Source: Sphingobacteriales bacterium (GTDB lineage Bacteria; Bacteroidota; Bacteroidia; Chitinophagales; CAIOSU01). Taken from it: a stretch of 64,000 nucleotides of DNA. Made by a program: the position numbers and the translations under genes. The stretch lies in contig JAIXUD010000004.1 in the NCBI GenBank assembly GCA_027483645.1, positions 1 through 64,000 on the forward strand, given 5' to 3'. Positions within the stretch are counted from its first letter, which is position 1, and each line of letters opens with the position of its first letter. The notes under the pieces were generated by a model that saw only the letters and a program-made list of their open reading frames with translations, had not been told where the DNA came from and did not search any database. Positions 7,570 through 54,595 of the stretch are shown here, piece after piece.

Positions 7570-8151
7570 ATGAAAAAAGCATCATTGTTACTTTGTTTGT
7601 TGTGCCTGCTATGCGCTGGGCAAGCCATGGCCCAGAAGAAATCGGAAAAGAAGCAACGCAAGGAGCTGGCCGAAGTAGCCACCGCCGCTTGTGTAAGCCA
7701 CCTGGAATCTTCAGATGAATATAAAGGCCTGCGGGATGGGATAGAAGCAGCAGGTTATTGCAGCTGCATGATGGAGAACCTGTTTAACCAATATTCCCTT
7801 GAACAATTAGCGGAAATGTTCACCAATAAAGACAAGACGGACATGGCGCTTTCGTTTTTTGCTGACAAGGGCAACTATGGCAAAACTATGGATTGCATGC
7901 GCAGCAACGTAAAGAACGAAAAAATACTAAAGGCCTATATGTTGGGTAATTCGTTTGGCTTAGAGACCTGTGTAGCAAGTATTAAGGAGCAAGGCTTGGA
8001 TGAACAAATTAAAGCCGAAGGATATTGTGAGTGCATGTTCGATAAGATGCAATCGGAATTTACGCTAGATGAGCTGCTTTCAGAAAAGACCTACGAATCA
8101 GAGAAGTTCCAAGTGTTGGCGATGGAGTGCGTAGTAGCGAATGCGAAGTAG
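7570..8151 (+). CDS. Secreted Cys-rich protein with two CxC repeats, function unknown
   Basis: A 193-residue exported protein. The ATG at 7570 is preferred over 7546 because it starts directly with MKKASLLLCLLCLLC, followed by an AxA-type cleavage site (AMAQ). The mature part contains two related units of about 75 residues. Each has a single Cys near its start (AACVSHL, ETCVASI), a CxC pair (YCSCM, YCECM) and a later single Cys (DCMRS, ECVVA), giving eight Cys in two matched sets. This indicates an internal duplication with a conserved disulfide or metal-binding pattern in the periplasm. I recognise no named family. Confidence 0.82.
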   Translation: MKKASLLLCLLCLLCAGQAMAQKKSEKKQRKELAEVATAACVSHLESSDEYKGLRDGIEAAGYCSCMMENLFNQYSLEQLAEMFTNKDKTDMALSFFADKGNYGKTMDCMRSNVKNEKILKAYMLGNSFGLETCVASIKEQGLDEQIKAEGYCECMFDKMQSEFTLDELLSEKTYESEKFQVLAMECVVANAK

Positions 8152-8157
8152 TATTAA

Positions 8158-8192
8158 GACACAAGACACAAGACACAAGACACAAGACGCAA
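8158..8192. repeat. 7-bp tandem array, word GACACAA (left arm)
   Basis: Four perfect GACACAA units and one GACGCAA, starting 6 bp after the stop of the Cys-rich secreted protein. Its reverse complement occurs at 8253-8289, so the two arms can pair across the convergent gap. Confidence 0.93.
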
Positions 8193-8252
8193 GATAGCTT
8201 CATTTTTTTGTGTAAAACGCTAATTCACAACCTTAAGCATTAAAACTTTATA

Positions 8253-8289
8253 TTGTCTCTCATATATTTTGTCTCGTGTCTTGTGTCTA
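8253..8289. repeat. Inverted heptamer arm, word TTGTGTC
   Basis: Degenerate copies of ttgtctc / gtgtctt / gtgtcta, the reverse complement of the array at 8158. The arm reaches the stop codon of the leftward M23 gene. With the left arm it forms a long imperfect fold-back between two convergent genes, where it could act as a bidirectional transcription barrier (inference). Confidence 0.85.
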
Positions 8290-8883
8290 ATACTTCCTAA
8301 TAAACCAATCAGGATTGATGTACCCTGTGGTATCGGTTGAGTAACCACCGCCTAAAGGCAAACCTACTTCTTCTCGCAACTCCAGGTGCAAGTGCGCGTA
8401 ATACCGCCCATTGGCATCGCCAATGGTGCCGATGGGTGTGCCTATTTTAACCCAAGTACCCTCTGCTACAAACATCTCGCTCAAGTGGGCATACAACGAT
8501 TCCACCGCTGGGGCAAAGCCATGGTCTTTAGGTAGGTAATGGGCTATGCGCATTACATTTCCCCAACCGCCTTGTAGGTCTTCAGCTTGGGTTATGTAAC
8601 CATTGGCTATGGCATAAACCGTATCGCCATAGTCGGTATTGCCGCCGCCGGTGCCGTTCCAGTCGTCTCCAAGGTGGGTGTTTTCGCCAAAACCTTGGGC
8701 ATTGTAATAACCTTTAGCGCTGGGCGGACCAACGGGGAAGTCGAATTTGGTTGCAAAAAGCGTATCTGCTGGCGGGTTTTGGAGCGTAGCGGTGGCAATG
8801 GAAGACTCCGCTTGGCTGGGCGAATTATCGGGCGTACAGCTGATGAGTAAAATGGTCATTAGCACTAGCGCGTACATTTCCAT
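8287..8883 (-). CDS. M23-family (LytM) metallopeptidase, lipoprotein
   Basis: A 198-residue protein with a short signal ending in the lipobox LLISC, so it is probably membrane-anchored in the periplasm or outer membrane. The catalytic domain shows the M23 zinc motifs: HLGDD (H-x3-D) near residue 90 and HLHLELR (H-x-H) near residue 165, with an intervening YAHLSEMFV segment. M23 enzymes cut peptidoglycan cross-bridges; with the ligands intact an active endopeptidase is expected. Start and upstream stop overlap as TAATG with the next lipoprotein gene, so the two form a translationally coupled pair. Confidence 0.92.
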   Translation of the reverse strand: MEMYALVLMTILLISCTPDNSPSQAESSIATATLQNPPADTLFATKFDFPVGPPSAKGYYNAQGFGENTHLGDDWNGTGGGNTDYGDTVYAIANGYITQAEDLQGGWGNVMRIAHYLPKDHGFAPAVESLYAHLSEMFVAEGTWVKIGTPIGTIGDANGRYYAHLHLELREEVGLPLGGGYSTDTTGYINPDWFIRKY

Positions 8884-9545
8884 TATTTAAATGGTAATCT
8901 TACGCGGCCAAACAACGGTATGGTATCCGTTAAGGTAGAGTCGCTTAGCAAGGCATTCATCTCGAAGCGGGTGCGGCACTCGCCATCAACAACGCCTTCA
9001 ATCTCAATGGGTTGGTAACCAAAGCCTGGCGTTTGCCAGTTGTTCACTATATAAATACTCTCGGTGGTGTTGCCAGCATTGTCGGTGTAGAGGATGTTGG
9101 TTACCACAGCCACAGTGTCTTGCAGGCTGTTGCCTAGCCGGTGATAGTTGCTATCCAACAAAGTACAAATACTCTCTGGCGACATAAATCGAGTTGTGTC
9201 GGTTCCTGCAATAGTAGTCTGCACCAGGCTGTCGGGTGCAAAGAAGAACATGTCAAACTCCAGCTTGCCCACGCTGCTATCGCTATTCCAGATAGTGAAT
9301 TTGTTAACCAGCTTGGTAAAATAGTAGCTACCCAGCACGGTATCGTTCTCCACCGATTGCGTCAACGAATCAACGGTTATATACCAATCAATGCAAGGCG
9401 TAAGGGTATTGTATGCGGTGCCATTTAGGTCGATGTCAACCCAATAGGTTTCACTTTGGCAATTGGCATCTTCGCTTTTGGTACAGCCGATGACAATTGC
9501 AATCAGGTAAACTAGAAATAGATATAGTAGAAGTGGTGCTTTCAT
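8883..9545 (-). CDS. Lipoprotein of unknown function, coupled to the M23 peptidase
   Basis: A 220-residue protein starting at 9545 (MKAPLLLYLF...) with a hydrophobic segment ending in VIGC, a lipobox; a Met five residues upstream is possible but less natural. The mature part is Thr/Asp/Ser-rich with predicted beta character and no motif I recognise. Its stop codon TAA overlaps the ATG of the M23 gene (TAATG), so the pair is likely one operon and may act together at the envelope. The start lies almost back-to-back with the open frame leading to the ACP gene, so a divergent promoter must lie in 9546-9678. Confidence 0.78.
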   Translation of the reverse strand: MKAPLLLYLFLVYLIAIVIGCTKSEDANCQSETYWVDIDLNGTAYNTLTPCIDWYITVDSLTQSVENDTVLGSYYFTKLVNKFTIWNSDSSVGKLEFDMFFFAPDSLVQTTIAGTDTTRFMSPESICTLLDSNYHRLGNSLQDTVAVVTNILYTDNAGNTTESIYIVNNWQTPGFGYQPIEIEGVVDGECRTRFEMNALLSDSTLTDTIPLFGRVRLPFK

Positions 9546-9678
9546 GTGCTTTATCAACACAAAGATGGAATTAATATTGCGTTTGTGGTGGTTTTTTGTT
9601 CCAATTGATGTGCTTTCGTTACCAAATTTATCATTCGCCCATCTAAATTTTAGTAATTTAGCCTATACAACACCCGCT

Positions 9679-9915
9679 ATGCACCTTGATACCTTTATTG
9701 CCCACATCGAAGAAGAGTTCGATGGCTTGCCGAAAGGTACCATCACTGGAGATACCGCCTTTAGGAAATTGGACGTTTGGAGCTCGATGATGGCGCTGAT
9801 ATTGATTGCTCGAATCGATTCGGAATACAGTGTAAACCTTACTGCCGAAGAGTTGGCCGAAGCCACTACCATCAACGATTTGTTTGATTTGGTGAAAACC
9901 CGCGTTGCCGTTTAA
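9679..9915 (+). CDS. Acyl carrier protein-like, phosphopantetheine-binding
   Basis: A 78-residue acyl carrier protein. The 4'-phosphopantetheine attachment Ser is in LDVWSSM (Ser36), replacing the canonical DSL/DSM; this W-S-S variant is usual for specialised ACPs encoded in biosynthetic clusters. The open frame reaches 9544, but the first 45 codons are not ACP-like, so I place the start at 9679. Stop and next start overlap as TAATG, coupling it to the KAS III gene. It probably carries acyl chains for that enzyme rather than serving bulk fatty-acid synthesis (inference). Confidence 0.88.
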   Translation: MHLDTFIAHIEEEFDGLPKGTITGDTAFRKLDVWSSMMALILIARIDSEYSVNLTAEELAEATTINDLFDLVKTRVAV

Positions 9916-46415: not shown

Positions 46416-47981
46416 TTATTTACTCCCATACACCGCAAACGGTATAATAATCTCTTCCAACGAGATACCACCATGCTGGAACGTATCGCGGAAGTAATTT
46501 ACAAAATGGTTGTAGTTATTGGGGTAAACAAAGAATTTATCCTCCCTAGCAAAAATAAACGTGCTGCTTACGTGCTGGCGCGGTAGGCCGGCATCCAGCG
46601 GGTTCTTCACTTCAAATACATCACGGTTCTCGAAGTTTAGGTTCTTACCGCTTTTATAGCGCAGGTTGGTAGTAGTGGCGCGGTCGGCAATACACTTGCT
46701 CGGGGTGTTTACGCGCTTGGTGCCGTGGTCGGTAGTAAAGATGATGTTCACCTTTTTACCGGCCAACTTTTTAAGCGCATTGTGCAATGGCGAGTGATCG
46801 AACCAAGAATAGGTTAGCGAGCGGTAAGCAGCCTCATCGCTGGCTAGTTCTTTGAGTACCTCCATCTCCGTACGGGCATGCGACAGCATATCCACGAAGT
46901 TGTATACGATAACGGTCAGTTGGTTGTTCAAGTAGTTTAGCACGTTGTCCTCCAGCTTCTTGCCGTCAGCGTGGTTGGTTACTTTGATATACTCGCTTTT
47001 AATAGTATCTCGAAAAGTACGCTTCATAAACGAGCGCAAGTACACCTCTTCTGAAAGGTTTTTACCGCCCTCGTCCTCATCGTTCTTCCAATTGTTAGGG
47101 AACTGCTTTTCAATATCAATAGGCAGCATACCTGCAAAAATGGCGTTACGCGCATATTGGGTAGCCGTAGGCAAAATGCTATAGAACGTCTCATCTTCCA
47201 CCATGCGGAAGTTTTCATTTACCAAGGGCTGAATAATGCGCCATTGGTCAAGGCGAAGGTTGTCAATCAGCACTAGTATGGTTGGCGTGTTGGTATCGGC
47301 ATTTACTACCGGCACTACCTTTTTCTCCATCAATTGGTGGCTCATAATCGGCGCCTCGGCACCACGGCCTTTCACCCAATCAATATAATGCTTAATAATA
47401 AACTTGTTGAACTCCACATTTGCCTCATGCTTCTGCATGTTCAGCACTTCCTTCATGCCCGTGTCGCTGTTGCTCTTCTCCAGCTCCAGCTCCCAATGGA
47501 TAAGGTTTTTATATAGCTCTACCCACTCCTTGTGGTCCAGCTTATCTTGTATGGTGCTGAATATGCGCTGAAACTCCTTTTGGTAGTCGCTGCTGGTTTT
47601 GGCGCTTACTAACCGTTTGTTGTCGATGATTTTCTTGAGCGTGAGCAGTATTTGGTTTGGCTTTACCGGCTTAATCAGGTAATCGGCAATTTGCGAGCCG
47701 ATCGCCTCTTCCATTATATCCTCTTCTTCGTTCTTGGTTATCATTACCACTGGTAGGCCGGGGTTGTTTCGCTTAATCTCCGTGAGCGCTTCCAGGCCAC
47801 TGATGCCCGGCATGCTTTCATCCAAGAAAACCACATCTACCTGCTCGGCCTTGCAATGGTCAATAGCATCGCGGCCATTGGTTACAGGTATAATAGTATA
47901 GCCTTTGCTTTCCAGAAACATGATTTGCGGTTTCAGCAAATCAATCTCATCATCCGCCCATAGTATGTTTATATTGTTCAT
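46416..47981 (-). CDS. porX: PorX, response regulator-PglZ protein of the type IX secretion system
   Basis: A 521-residue protein. Residues 1-115 are a receiver domain: acidic Asp10/Asp11 in LWADDE, phosphoacceptor Asp54 in VFLDESMPG, Thr82 in VMITKNEE and Lys104 in YLIKPVKP are all in place. The remaining ~400 residues are a PglZ (alkaline-phosphatase-like) domain with VLIDNLRLDQWRII and IIFTTDHGTKRV blocks. PorX regulates T9SS genes with the kinase PorY (family knowledge). It is divergent from the HD hydrolase across 58 bp. No T9SS structural genes or PorY lie in the window. Confidence 0.96.
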   Translation of the reverse strand: MNNINILWADDEIDLLKPQIMFLESKGYTIIPVTNGRDAIDHCKAEQVDVVFLDESMPGISGLEALTEIKRNNPGLPVVMITKNEEEDIMEEAIGSQIADYLIKPVKPNQILLTLKKIIDNKRLVSAKTSSDYQKEFQRIFSTIQDKLDHKEWVELYKNLIHWELELEKSNSDTGMKEVLNMQKHEANVEFNKFIIKHYIDWVKGRGAEAPIMSHQLMEKKVVPVVNADTNTPTILVLIDNLRLDQWRIIQPLVNENFRMVEDETFYSILPTATQYARNAIFAGMLPIDIEKQFPNNWKNDEDEGGKNLSEEVYLRSFMKRTFRDTIKSEYIKVTNHADGKKLEDNVLNYLNNQLTVIVYNFVDMLSHARTEMEVLKELASDEAAYRSLTYSWFDHSPLHNALKKLAGKKVNIIFTTDHGTKRVNTPSKCIADRATTTNLRYKSGKNLNFENRDVFEVKNPLDAGLPRQHVSSTFIFAREDKFFVYPNNYNHFVNYFRDTFQHGGISLEEIIIPFAVYGSK

Positions 47982-50513: not shown

Positions 50514-50945
50514 ATGAAAACCCTCTTGAAAGTTGTAGCTGGATTACTGCTGCTTATTAATGGCCTAGGCGCCTTGTATGGTGGCTGGAATTTAATGACC
50601 TTCCCCGATGGCAGTGGGTTTGGTTTGCCATTGAGTATATTGCAGCACTCACCATTCACCGATTTCTTTTTGCCGGGCCTTATTCTGTTTGTTTTCAATG
50701 GCCTATGCAGTATTGCAGTGTTAGCGGCCTTGTGGCTCAACCGGGCACAGTACCCTTGGTTGGTGATAGGGCAGGGGGCCATACTAGTGGGTTGGATAGG
50801 TATTCAAATATTGTTGATACGAGGCACCGGTACCCTGCATTGGATTTTCGGCGGCATAGGTTTGTTATTAATGGTGAGCGGCGCGCTACTGGTGAATGCT
50901 AATCGTAAATACGCCAATTTTAGAAGGGAGCCTCATACTCGGTAA
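50514..50945 (+). CDS. Small four-helix membrane protein, unknown
   Basis: A 143-residue protein with four hydrophobic segments (MKTLLKVVAGLLLLINGLGAL, then FFLPGLILFVFNGLC, WLVIGQGAILVGWIGI, IFGGIGLLLMVSGALL) and a short basic C-terminal tail. No family recognised. A -7 element abuts its ATG, which suggests a monocistronic leaderless transcript. Confidence 0.8.
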   Translation: MKTLLKVVAGLLLLINGLGALYGGWNLMTFPDGSGFGLPLSILQHSPFTDFFLPGLILFVFNGLCSIAVLAALWLNRAQYPWLVIGQGAILVGWIGIQILLIRGTGTLHWIFGGIGLLLMVSGALLVNANRKYANFRREPHTR

Positions 50946-51023: not shown

Positions 51024-52790
51024 ATGCGTATACGCTTGCTTTTCATCGCTACATGTGCTATTGTACTACTATTTGCCGCCTGCAAAAAAGAGGAGAATGG
51101 CGCAACAGGCTCAATTATAGAGGCTACAGAAGTACTCGATAAAGCGGAAGAAAAATTTGCAGAACTAGGTGCTGCAAACGCACTAACCCCGCAGCAAGCA
51201 TTAATGGAAACCGCTGCTTGGCTAGAAGGGCAAGATGGTGTGGCCAGCTTATACACCATAGATAGCATGATAATAATGATGGAAACGGATGGTGGGTTAC
51301 AACTGCAATATCAATACATGCCAGTAGACGCCAATGGCCGTAGCCTTTTTAGGGGCGGCGGCGGTGGGGGTGTGAGCTTTAAACAGTTTGCGTCAGGTAG
51401 CTGCAGCGACCCTATAGATAACGATAAGGTACTGCTGCTGGCGCCTTCAGAGGCGGAGTTTTATGGCGCTGGAGAACTTGATGCCTTGGCAGCAAGGATA
51501 GGCTCAACGAGCAAAAACCTGCAAGTAACGGTATTGAGGGATGTGCAGTGCAGCCCTGCCATTATGAAACAGTTCGGCAATTATGGCTTGGTGATATTGG
51601 ATACCCACGGCGTTCCGGATGGGTTTCTTACTGGCAGCTATATTACCTTCCTCAAAACAAATAAACCTGCAGATGAGCAAGCATTTAAAGATGCCATTAA
51701 CACTCAGGTGGGCAGCGATGCGGTAGCTAAGATAAACTCAGGCGAATACAGATTAAGCGCGCTAACCTTTATAAAGGAGGGAAAGGTAAACTGGTGGCCC
51801 GCCACTGTTGAGCCAAATGTGAAGTACAACATCTATGTTACTTCCAAGTTTATTAAAACCATGCCTAAGCTTACCAATACCGTGCTATTGGCCAACATGT
51901 GCTATAGTGGATACAACAATAATACTTATGAAAGTAAGGGCATTGAACCCATTCGGCCAGCATTCCTGAGCTTAGACCCTTTAAGTTATTATTGCTATGC
52001 CATGAGCAATGGCACCGCTAATGCCGTATCTAATATTTTTGCCACTAAAATGGAAAATGCTTTAGTAGGCAGACTTGTTATTGACATTGACAGCACCATG
52101 ATTGCACACTTGAAAGCGGATAATGTTACGGAGTACTTAGACAGCATACCACCATCGTATAAAATTCCTTTGAACAACTTTAAGCATTTTGGGAAAGATA
52201 CTTATTGTTACACTTGTGGCGGCACGCTGGTAGATACGCGCGACAATAAAAGATACAAAACGGTATGTATCGGCAACCAGGTTTGGATGGCCGAAGACCT
52301 AAAGTATAATGCACCGGGCAGCTATTGTTATGATAACAACACGGCTAATTGCAACAGTTACGGGCGTTTATATAGCTGGACCACCAGTATGAATGGCGAC
52401 TCGGCCAGTAGCTCGGTGCCCAGTGGCGTAAGAGGTATTTGCCCAACAGGATGGCATATACCAAGTAAGGCTGAGTGGGATGTATTGGTTACGTATTTAG
52501 GTGGGATTAATGTGGCCGGTGGTGCACTACGCGAAACCACAGGCTGGGATGCTCCTAACGTCGGCGCCACCAATAGCGCAAACTTTGATGCCAAGCCAAC
52601 GGGCTACTACAACACCACCATATTTAGCTCACTTGGCTCGCAAGTAAGCTGGTGGACATCCACATACAATACATTTACACCTGGCTATTATTACTATGTT
52701 ACTACCGGCTCATACTATGCTTCAATAAGCACAATATATAGCGCCGAACCAAATAGCCTTTATACCTCGTGCCGCTGCGTGAAGGATTGA
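51024..52790 (+). CDS. Lipoprotein with caspase-like (clan CD) domain and C-terminal FISUMP domain, copy 1
   Basis: A 588-residue lipoprotein: the signal MRIRLLFIATCAIVLLFAAC ends in a lipobox Cys20. Residues ~130-360 have the hallmarks of a clan CD cysteine-peptidase/CHAT-like fold: a hydrophobic strand ending YGLVILDTHG (His195-Gly196) and, about 95 residues on, VLLANMCYSGYN (Cys293 followed by SG). The C-terminal ~190 residues (TLVDTRDNKRYKTV, IGNQVWMAEDL, ICPTGWHIPSKAEWDVL, ending SCRCVKD) are a FISUMP domain (Fibrobacter succinogenes major paralogous domain). Probably surface- or periplasm-exposed. The next gene is a paralogue 41 bp away. Confidence 0.85.
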   Translation: MRIRLLFIATCAIVLLFAACKKEENGATGSIIEATEVLDKAEEKFAELGAANALTPQQALMETAAWLEGQDGVASLYTIDSMIIMMETDGGLQLQYQYMPVDANGRSLFRGGGGGGVSFKQFASGSCSDPIDNDKVLLLAPSEAEFYGAGELDALAARIGSTSKNLQVTVLRDVQCSPAIMKQFGNYGLVILDTHGVPDGFLTGSYITFLKTNKPADEQAFKDAINTQVGSDAVAKINSGEYRLSALTFIKEGKVNWWPATVEPNVKYNIYVTSKFIKTMPKLTNTVLLANMCYSGYNNNTYESKGIEPIRPAFLSLDPLSYYCYAMSNGTANAVSNIFATKMENALVGRLVIDIDSTMIAHLKADNVTEYLDSIPPSYKIPLNNFKHFGKDTYCYTCGGTLVDTRDNKRYKTVCIGNQVWMAEDLKYNAPGSYCYDNNTANCNSYGRLYSWTTSMNGDSASSSVPSGVRGICPTGWHIPSKAEWDVLVTYLGGINVAGGALRETTGWDAPNVGATNSANFDAKPTGYYNTTIFSSLGSQVSWWTSTYNTFTPGYYYYVTTGSYYASISTIYSAEPNSLYTSCRCVKD

Positions 52791-52831
52791 TATTGATAAA
52801 ACGATTTAGGTTGACCCGTAAAATCCGCATT

Positions 52832-54595
52832 ATGCGTACTCGACTGTTGTATTTTTTGATTGCACTTACTGTATTGTTTACTGCCTGCAAAAAAGACGAA
52901 GGTGATGACGGCACCGCCATATTGGAAGCTACCAACGTGCTGGATATGGCTGATGAGAAGTTTTTGGAATATGGCGCGGCCAACGTATTGTCTCCGCAAC
53001 AAGCATTAATGGAAACAGCCATGTGGTTAGAGACCCAAGAGGGGGTGGCTAGTTTGTACACCATCGATAGTATGATTATCATGGTTAAAACCACTGGCGG
53101 ACTAGAAGTGAGCTACCAATACATGCCTGTGGGTGCCAATAGCCTGAGCCTTTACAGAGGCGGAGGCGGCTCGGGGGTGAGCTTAAAGCAATTTGCGGGC
53201 GGCAGCTGCACCAACCCTCTTGAAAATGACAAAGTGCTGCTATTTGCCCCTGCAGAAAATGAGTTTTACAAATACGGTGACCTTGAGGATTTGGCCACTA
53301 GGATCGGCTCTACAAGCAAGCAGTTGAAGGTAACCATATTAAGGAATGCGCAGTGCACGCCAGCCAAAGTAAGGGAGTTTGCCAATTATGGTTTGGTAAT
53401 AATGGATACACACGGCGTGCCTGATGGTTTTCTAACGGGTAGCAATGTTTCCTTTACCAAAAAGAATAAACCCGCTGATGAAGCAAGCCTTCGGAATGCA
53501 GTAAACAACCAAGTGGGCAGCGATGCGATTAGCAAGATAAACTCGGGCGAGTATCGCTTAGGCACGATCACCCAAATTAAAGATGGACAATTGAACTGGT
53601 TGCCAAGCAGCGTTGCAACAGATACGAAATACGACATTTATGTTACCTCCAAATTCATCAAAACCATCCCTAAGCTTAGCAATACCATCGTGCTGGCCAA
53701 TATGTGCTATAGTGGCTATAACCTAAATACCTACGAAAGCAATACAATTGATCCTATCAGGCCAGCATTTTTGGGGTTGGACCCTTTAAGCTATTACTGC
53801 TTCGCCAGGGCTGATGGTAGCGCTAACGCAGTAAGCAATATTTTTGCCACCAAAATGGAAAATGCATTAGTTGGTAGGCTAATAATAGCAGGCGATAGCA
53901 CCAAAATTTCTCACCTGAAAACGGATAACGCTACCGAATATTTAGACAGCATACCGCCATCCTACAAAATACCATTGAATAATTTCAAGCACTTTGGCAA
54001 AGACACTTATTGCTACCAATGCGGCGGCACGTTTGTAGATGCCCGCGATGGCAAAAGCTATAGAACGGTATGCATTGGCAGCCAGGTCTGGATGGCCGAC
54101 AATCTAAATTACGATGCACCGGGCAGTGTATGCTACGATAACGACCCTGCCAACTGTACTACCTATGGTAAGCTGTATGATTGGGCAACGGTACTGGCTG
54201 GTGCGCAAGGCAGCTATGCAAGCCCTAGCGGAGTGCAAGGAGTATGCCCACAGGGCTGGCATCTGCCTAGCGAAAACGAATGTCTGCTGTTATTTTTCAA
54301 CCTTGGCGGAGGAAGCGTTGCCGGTGGTGCAATGAAGGAAACCACTGGCTGGAATCCCCCGAACGTTGGCGCCACTAACAGTTCAGGCTTTAATGGAAAG
54401 GCTGGCGGTGAATTTCTGGGTGGCCCTTTTGGTTTCACGTACAAAGGAGAATTTGCTATGTTGTGGACAGCTACTCCTAGTGTCAATTCTTCCACCTCGG
54501 CGCTTAGCGTACGCTTAAGTAATGCCGATGCATCTGCAAGTATATTCGGCAATTCCAAAACAGAAAAGCTCTCGTGCCGCTGCGTGAAGGATTGA
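52832..54595 (+). CDS. Lipoprotein with caspase-like domain and C-terminal FISUMP domain, copy 2
   Basis: A 587-residue paralogue of the preceding gene, starting at 52832 (MRTRLLYFLIALTVLFTAC, lipobox Cys19); the longer frame to 52769 reads into the gap. The same elements are present: YGLVIMDTHG (His194), VLANMCYSGYN (Cys292), the block NALVGRLII, and a C-terminal FISUMP domain ending SCRCVKD. The core is closely similar throughout while the FISUMP tail differs more, suggesting tandem duplication followed by divergence of the tail. Function unknown; a surface protease or ligand-binding role is inference. Confidence 0.85.
   Translation: MRTRLLYFLIALTVLFTACKKDEGDDGTAILEATNVLDMADEKFLEYGAANVLSPQQALMETAMWLETQEGVASLYTIDSMIIMVKTTGGLEVSYQYMPVGANSLSLYRGGGGSGVSLKQFAGGSCTNPLENDKVLLFAPAENEFYKYGDLEDLATRIGSTSKQLKVTILRNAQCTPAKVREFANYGLVIMDTHGVPDGFLTGSNVSFTKKNKPADEASLRNAVNNQVGSDAISKINSGEYRLGTITQIKDGQLNWLPSSVATDTKYDIYVTSKFIKTIPKLSNTIVLANMCYSGYNLNTYESNTIDPIRPAFLGLDPLSYYCFARADGSANAVSNIFATKMENALVGRLIIAGDSTKISHLKTDNATEYLDSIPPSYKIPLNNFKHFGKDTYCYQCGGTFVDARDGKSYRTVCIGSQVWMADNLNYDAPGSVCYDNDPANCTTYGKLYDWATVLAGAQGSYASPSGVQGVCPQGWHLPSENECLLLFFNLGGGSVAGGAMKETTGWNPPNVGATNSSGFNGKAGGEFLGGPFGFTYKGEFAMLWTATPSVNSSTSALSVRLSNADASASIFGNSKTEKLSCRCVKD

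Follow-up and report, generated by a model that had tools for sequence, protein, structure and literature searches.

A CHAT-like clan CD domain with a FISUMP tail in tandem predicted surface lipoproteins of a Sphingobacteriales bacterium

In this study, we analysed a 64,000-nt stretch of DNA from a Sphingobacteriales bacterium (assembly GCA_027483645.1, contig JAIXUD010000004.1, positions 1 to 64,000; hereafter the window), in which two consecutive genes each encode a putative lipoprotein composed of a small N-terminal domain, a middle domain and a C-terminal FISUMP domain (Table 1). The structure model supports assignment of the middle domain to clan CD, and by sequence the pair falls into a CHAT-like family of clan CD that is new and not covered by an existing model, and whose members bear one of two surface tails, FISUMP or choice-of-anchor L. 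We consider it rather probable that the two proteins are surface-tethered, P1-specific cysteine endopeptidases, which would be aimed by a lectin-like FISUMP tail.

Clan CD fold and kinship to CHAT

An AlphaFold model of protein 1, built from a 34-sequence alignment, reached a mean predicted local distance difference test score (pLDDT) of 88.2 and a predicted template modelling score of 0.81. A preliminary description of the window had called the middle domain clan CD-like and proposed a check of its fold, and the predicted structure (pLDDT 88) indeed displays the alpha/beta/alpha fold of clan CD. Structural comparison, made on the top 1000 chains from Foldseek, gave the best score of all for residues 124–399 against separase (Z 14.6), followed by gingipain RgpB (Z 13.8), activated SAVED-CHAT (Z 13.6), the anti-sigma factor DdvA (Z 12.2), the CHAT domains of Csx29 and Craspase (Z about 10–12) and caspase-3 (Z 9.8), the leading matches being clan CD domains well over the tool's stated background of Z 7–8. 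Strand 189–193 of the model leads into H195 and strand 287–291 into C293, a placement as in clan CD. Within the domain, branch A (see below) is least conserved, at 27% pairwise identity, in the extra segment between these two residues (about 200–285).

The middle region of each protein carries DTHG and NMCYSG. In the alignment of 34 relatives, each of the 33 rows that cover H195 and G196 retains both, and C293 is present in 34 of 34, while most other positions vary. Since this invariance spans two branches of the family, A and B, which lie far apart in the tree (internal branch lengths 1.6 and 1.0 changes per column), selection on catalysis can be argued, and we infer that the domain would be active as a protease. 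The His-Gly and Cys motifs had been recognised correctly in the preliminary description, as had their retention in both copies (H195/C293 in protein 1, H194/C292 in protein 2), with the numbering in protein 1 off by one (H195-G196 and C293 are correct).

Sequence kinship was assessed by profile–profile comparison, for which the CHAT profile was made from domains of the same phylum. The whole clan CD domain matched the CHAT profile at 79% (E 1.6e-5) and its His half at 92% (E 6.6e-7), with YGLVILDTHG aligned on the THG/THA His motif of CHAT, and branches A and B each matched independently (47% and 74%). Control comparisons (against C25, C25 against CHAT, and against FISUMP) stayed at 0.1–0.3%. 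Pfam CHAT (PF12770) gave no match to the window proteins or the relatives at E up to 5, and no model of Pfam or NCBIfam matched the protease part, FISUMP being the sole significant match. From the profile match to CHAT without a match to Pfam CHAT we conclude that, judged by sequence, the proteins form a CHAT-like family of clan CD which that model misses and which strictly belongs to neither PF12770 nor PF01364.

Compared with CHAT proteins such as Csx29/Craspase and SAVED-CHAT, the likeness lies in the fold (Z 10–13.6) and in the His half, where the His residues align. However, CHAT is cytoplasmic, while the window proteins are lipoproteins predicted outside the cell, without tetratricopeptide repeats (TPR), with a longer insertion between His and Cys, and with a FISUMP tail. 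Gingipains and PorU (C25) share the clan CD fold and are extracytoplasmic proteases of the same phylum, but the window proteins have a lipid anchor in place of a type IX secretion sorting domain, their tail is FISUMP, and profile similarity to C25 is absent. Membership in the gingipain family (C25, PF01364) was rejected, as there was no Pfam match, comparison with 12 C25 domains gave 0.1–0.2%, and the fold is all that the two have in common. The window's genome carries two C25 genes of its own, and such genes are present in 21 of 21 genomes from the search for relatives. Separase (C50), despite its top structural score, is a eukaryotic cohesin protease without detectable sequence similarity to the window proteins. 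Sequence searches of the PDB with protein 1, the clan CD profile and the FISUMP profile returned no meaningful relative; a lipase match (3g7n, E 0.07) was dismissed, since the residues of protein 1 that it covers (370–421) straddle a domain border.

Surface anchor, linker and FISUMP tail

Both proteins possess a lipobox Cys at the N-terminus (C20 and C19, respectively). For Capnocytophaga, C-X-K-(D/E)2-X has been described as the optimum signal for surface export (PMC5080379), and C-X-K-(D/E)2 is fitted exactly by C-K-K-E-E-N in protein 1 and C-K-K-D-E-G in protein 2; the protein of a congener (C-K-K-E-D-G) fits this optimum as well. The cell-surface location put forward in the preliminary description thus gains support from a textbook signal, itself a prediction, and the proteins are probably surface-exposed. 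Branch A proteins of other families (C-S-S, C-G-T and similar) do not show the export motif.

The N-terminal domain (residues 30–106) is modelled, mostly with confidence, as two helices and a beta meander. It is separated from the likewise confident clan CD domain by a Gly-rich linker with a low-confidence stretch at residues 111–121, which R110-G-G opens. This motif is kept in every branch A row covering it, and among the 13 covering rows of branch B, 10 have Arg or Lys in place of R110 and 3 have Leu, with Gly-Gly in all. Cleavage after Arg is described for several families of clan CD (PMC12445089). Such a conserved site at the start of the main flexible linker is what would be expected of a self-processing surface protein, in which the clan CD domain mainly cuts its own linker, e.g. 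after R110, either for activation or for release of protease and FISUMP from the N-terminal domain. We regard this alternative as possible yet on the unlikely side, since Leu occupies the R110 position in three branch B proteins and RGG may be structural. Zymogen or release cleavage at the R110-G-G linker is, as a feature of the proteins, proposed here tentatively.

The tails match PF09603 (E 2e-30 and 4e-24; 106.9 and 86.2 bits for genes 1 and 2, cut-off 33.9) and TIGR02145 (E 7e-46 and 8e-43; 157 and 147 bits, cut-off 41.65). The tail of gene 2 additionally shows a weak match to DUF1566/Lcl_C (PF07603), which lies under the Pfam cut-off (E 0.012, 16 bits against 35). Fib_succ_major has been reported to be similar to DUF1566 (PMC4159848), and the Lcl domain, which contains DUF1566, resembles C-type lectins and binds glycosaminoglycans (PMC11162425). 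By analogy with this domain, FISUMP may adopt a lectin-like fold and bind a ligand. A third FISUMP protein of about 189 aa, without the protease domain, is encoded elsewhere in the same genome (L003:1483-2049; C16:69061-69510), and near its gene, on the opposite strand, lies a gene for a 3TM holin (PF11351) of the gene transfer agent or phage type.

The end of the tail is hypervariable: mean pairwise identity is 11% in the tip at residues 547–580, compared with 49–65% before residue 531 and 91% in the terminal SCRCVKD. Between gene 1 and gene 2, amino-acid identity in the tip drops to as little as 20%, and the last 25 bp are identical. FISUMP/Fib_succ_major lipoproteins, including some with Mfa2-FISUMP, have been reported as targets of diversity-generating retroelements (DGRs) and share with the window proteins a C-terminal FISUMP with a variable last part (PMC4159848). 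The body here is however a clan CD domain, and the genome is without a recognisable DGR reverse transcriptase. RVT_1 found no match in this genome, which is 97.85% complete, and a template repeat for the 3' end of the gene is absent within the window. Reverse transcriptases were found in 2 of 10 relatives' genomes (G022 and G731), where they carry the non-DGR motif PQG(S/A)PTS and lie away from the family genes; that of G022 matches retron models. With no DGR found in these searches, the variability is most readily explained by a tip that binds a ligand and simply evolves fast, or else by a relic of a former DGR. The G022 locus (L063:1342-2382) codes for a retron type VI-like reverse transcriptase adjoining a helix-turn-helix gene and is unrelated to the FISUMP gene.

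The same evidence bears on a further alternative, a sensor–effector conflict protein in which the protease would be switched on once the variable, lectin-like tail detects the surface of a phage, a rival or a host, in the manner of DGR targets that combine CLec with CHAT or peptidase domains. CLec targets bearing CHAT do exist (PMC10907252), and the reported DGR targeting of Fib_succ_major lipoproteins, the hypervariable tip amid conserved flanks, the tandem arrays and the position of one relative between two TIR-domain genes would suit such a role. However, we consider it improbable, given that no reverse transcriptase was found in the window's genome and no template repeat within the window, and given the retron-like rather than DGR-like character of the enzyme scanned in one of the two relatives, the lack of any match to the anti-phage models of PADLOC, and the predicted location of the protein outside the cell, from where cell death could not be triggered directly.

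Relatives, gene pair and neighbourhood

Relatives were sought in about 1,100 genomes, from which the two branches were recovered. Branch A comprises 19 proteins in 11 genomes with a FISUMP tail in 19 of 19, and the combination, which the preliminary description did not recognise from elsewhere, is accordingly recurrent and not unique; a report of this architecture did not appear in the open-access literature searched, which is weak evidence. Branch B comprises 15 proteins in 15 genomes, with the same protease domain and without FISUMP; a choice-of-anchor L tail is present in both of the two members scanned. Branch B proteins (L026, L027, L029-L039) are about 700 aa long with a further N-terminal region of 150–200 residues, and are frequent in family f61. 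Tandem arrays in branch A count two genes in G856, three in G682, where the array runs out at the end of the contig, and at least five in a row in G731 (L047:2667-11434), in which a 1045-aa open frame fuses a partial copy, its end apparently frameshifted, with a full copy.

A single-sequence query matched 2 of 299 genomes in the order to which the window belongs, and a six-row profile matched 24 of 294 in the class of G451. In the tree, the two window proteins and that of the congener are placed together with G856, which comes from the class of G451 (98/96 support), and this grouping, together with the patchy distribution within one phylum, fits horizontal transfer or heavy loss as judged from the sequences. 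Back-translated motif scans of genome and viral contig collections gave no match, nor did tblastn against plasmids.

The two genes are separated by 41 bp. The open reading frame of gene 2 as listed starts at a GTG at 52769, and the ATG at 52832 yields the 587-aa lipoprotein MRTRLLYFLIALTVLFTAC. Both reading frames, the lipobox Cys in each and the PF09603/TIGR02145 matches bear out the initial view of tandem paralogues that join a lipoprotein signal, a middle domain and FISUMP. Over the first 399 residues, before the tail, the proteins are 71% identical, and in the tree they are sisters and each other's closest relative with full support, from which a local duplication can be deduced as the origin of the pair.

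The sole conserved neighbour is a 143-aa membrane protein (window 50514–50945) directly upstream; a homologue with 58% identity immediately precedes the family gene in the congener G022, and the other loci lack it. About 3 kb upstream of the gene pair, on the minus strand (46416–47981), lies a gene for a PorX-like response regulator with a PglZ domain, PorX being a regulator of type IX secretion. This regulator and the C25 genes point to Bacteroidota as the phylum of the window. The family gene of G687 is located between two TIR-TPR genes (L051:2528-4198 and 7976-9697), an arrangement that occurs in this one genome only and may hint at a connection with conflict systems. Promoter and terminator scans gave nothing above chance.

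Table 1. Positions of the two genes and their domains, motifs and candidate sites in the window
Feature	Position	Strand	Basis
Gene 1: lipoprotein, N-domain, clan CD (CHAT/caspase-like) domain, FISUMP; 588 aa	51024-52790	+	
Gene 1 signal peptide, lipobox C20, surface-export motif C-K-K-E-E-N	51024-51098	+	C-X-K-(D/E)2-X optimum, PMC5080379
Gene 1 N-terminal domain, residues 30-106; candidate pro-domain	51111-51341	+	Structure model
Gene 1 conserved R110-G-G, then Gly-rich linker; candidate processing site	51342-51404	+	Model, alignment
Gene 1 clan CD domain, residues 128-400	51405-52223	+	Model, fold search, profile comparison
Gene 1 catalytic-type H195-G196	51606-51611	+	Family alignment, CHAT profile comparison
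Gene 1 catalytic-type C293 (VLLANMCYSG)	51900-51902	+	Family alignment
Gene 1 FISUMP domain, residues 401-588	52224-52787	+	Pfam and NCBIfam matches
Gene 1 hypervariable FISUMP tip, residues 547-580, then conserved SCRCVKD	52662-52763	+	
Gene 2: paralogue of gene 1, 587 aa from ATG	52832-54595	+	
Gene 2 signal peptide, lipobox C19, surface-export motif C-K-K-D-E-G	52832-52906	+	C-X-K-(D/E)2-X optimum, PMC5080379
Gene 2 clan CD domain, residues 127-399	53210-54028	+	Alignment to gene 1
Gene 2 catalytic-type H194-G195	53411-53416	+	Family alignment
Gene 2 catalytic-type C292 (IVLANMCYSG)	53705-53707	+	Family alignment
Gene 2 FISUMP domain, residues 400-587	54029-54592	+	Pfam and NCBIfam matches
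Gene 2 hypervariable FISUMP tip, limits approximate	54470-54568	+	

Proposed function

We propose a model in which the lipoprotein would be flipped to the outer face of the outer membrane and display, in order from the lipid anchor, the small N-terminal domain, a flexible Arg-Gly-Gly/Gly-rich linker, the CHAT-like clan CD protease and FISUMP. The endopeptidases of clan CD are specific for the P1 residue (PMC12445089), and the domain would use a His195–Cys293 dyad to cleave a single protein or a small number of them after one particular P1 residue. FISUMP, like the related Lcl domain, would hold a glycan or protein ligand with its variable tip, and this binding would bring the protease to its target or keep it in place. 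Tandem duplication combined with a fast-changing tip could then provide different targets per copy on one reusable protease.

Several observations weigh against this guided protease. The Cys half of the domain did not match CHAT significantly (0.9%, with NMCYSG placed over SACETG), and at position 193, two residues ahead of the His, D, N, A, S and T all occur. The distance between His and Cys amounts to 87–101 residues in the branch A members covering both and 77–78 in branch B, and is presumably shorter in the solved clan CD enzymes. For YabG, a shorter spacing of 46 follows from its residue numbers (PMC12445089). FISUMP found no match among solved structures by profile, and in the fold search with the model of protein 1 the protease domain took up the matches. 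Finally, a partner gene or operon common beyond the genus was not found, and the genomic context hints at no substrate. The unusual His–Cys spacing might also point to a catalytically dead scaffold, in which the clan CD fold is retained as a structural or adhesive module, but the exceptionless His, Gly and Cys in two so widely separated branches make this very improbable.

Beyond the individual proteins, the guided protease could be extended to a modular, evolvable system of an undescribed clan CD family, in which one core is combined with exchangeable tails, arranged in tandem arrays and possibly self-cleaved at Arg-Gly-Gly; in this full extent the proposal is speculative and rather doubtful. 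Because the searched Pfam and NCBIfam collections hold no model for the protease domain, family members are likely annotated merely as 'FISUMP domain-containing protein'. FISUMP domains are widespread and without a known role, and the fusion described here offers them a testable job, namely protease targeting. Most bacterial CHAT and caspase-like proteins studied are cytoplasmic, so a surface fusion of this kind would take caspase-like proteolysis outside the cell.
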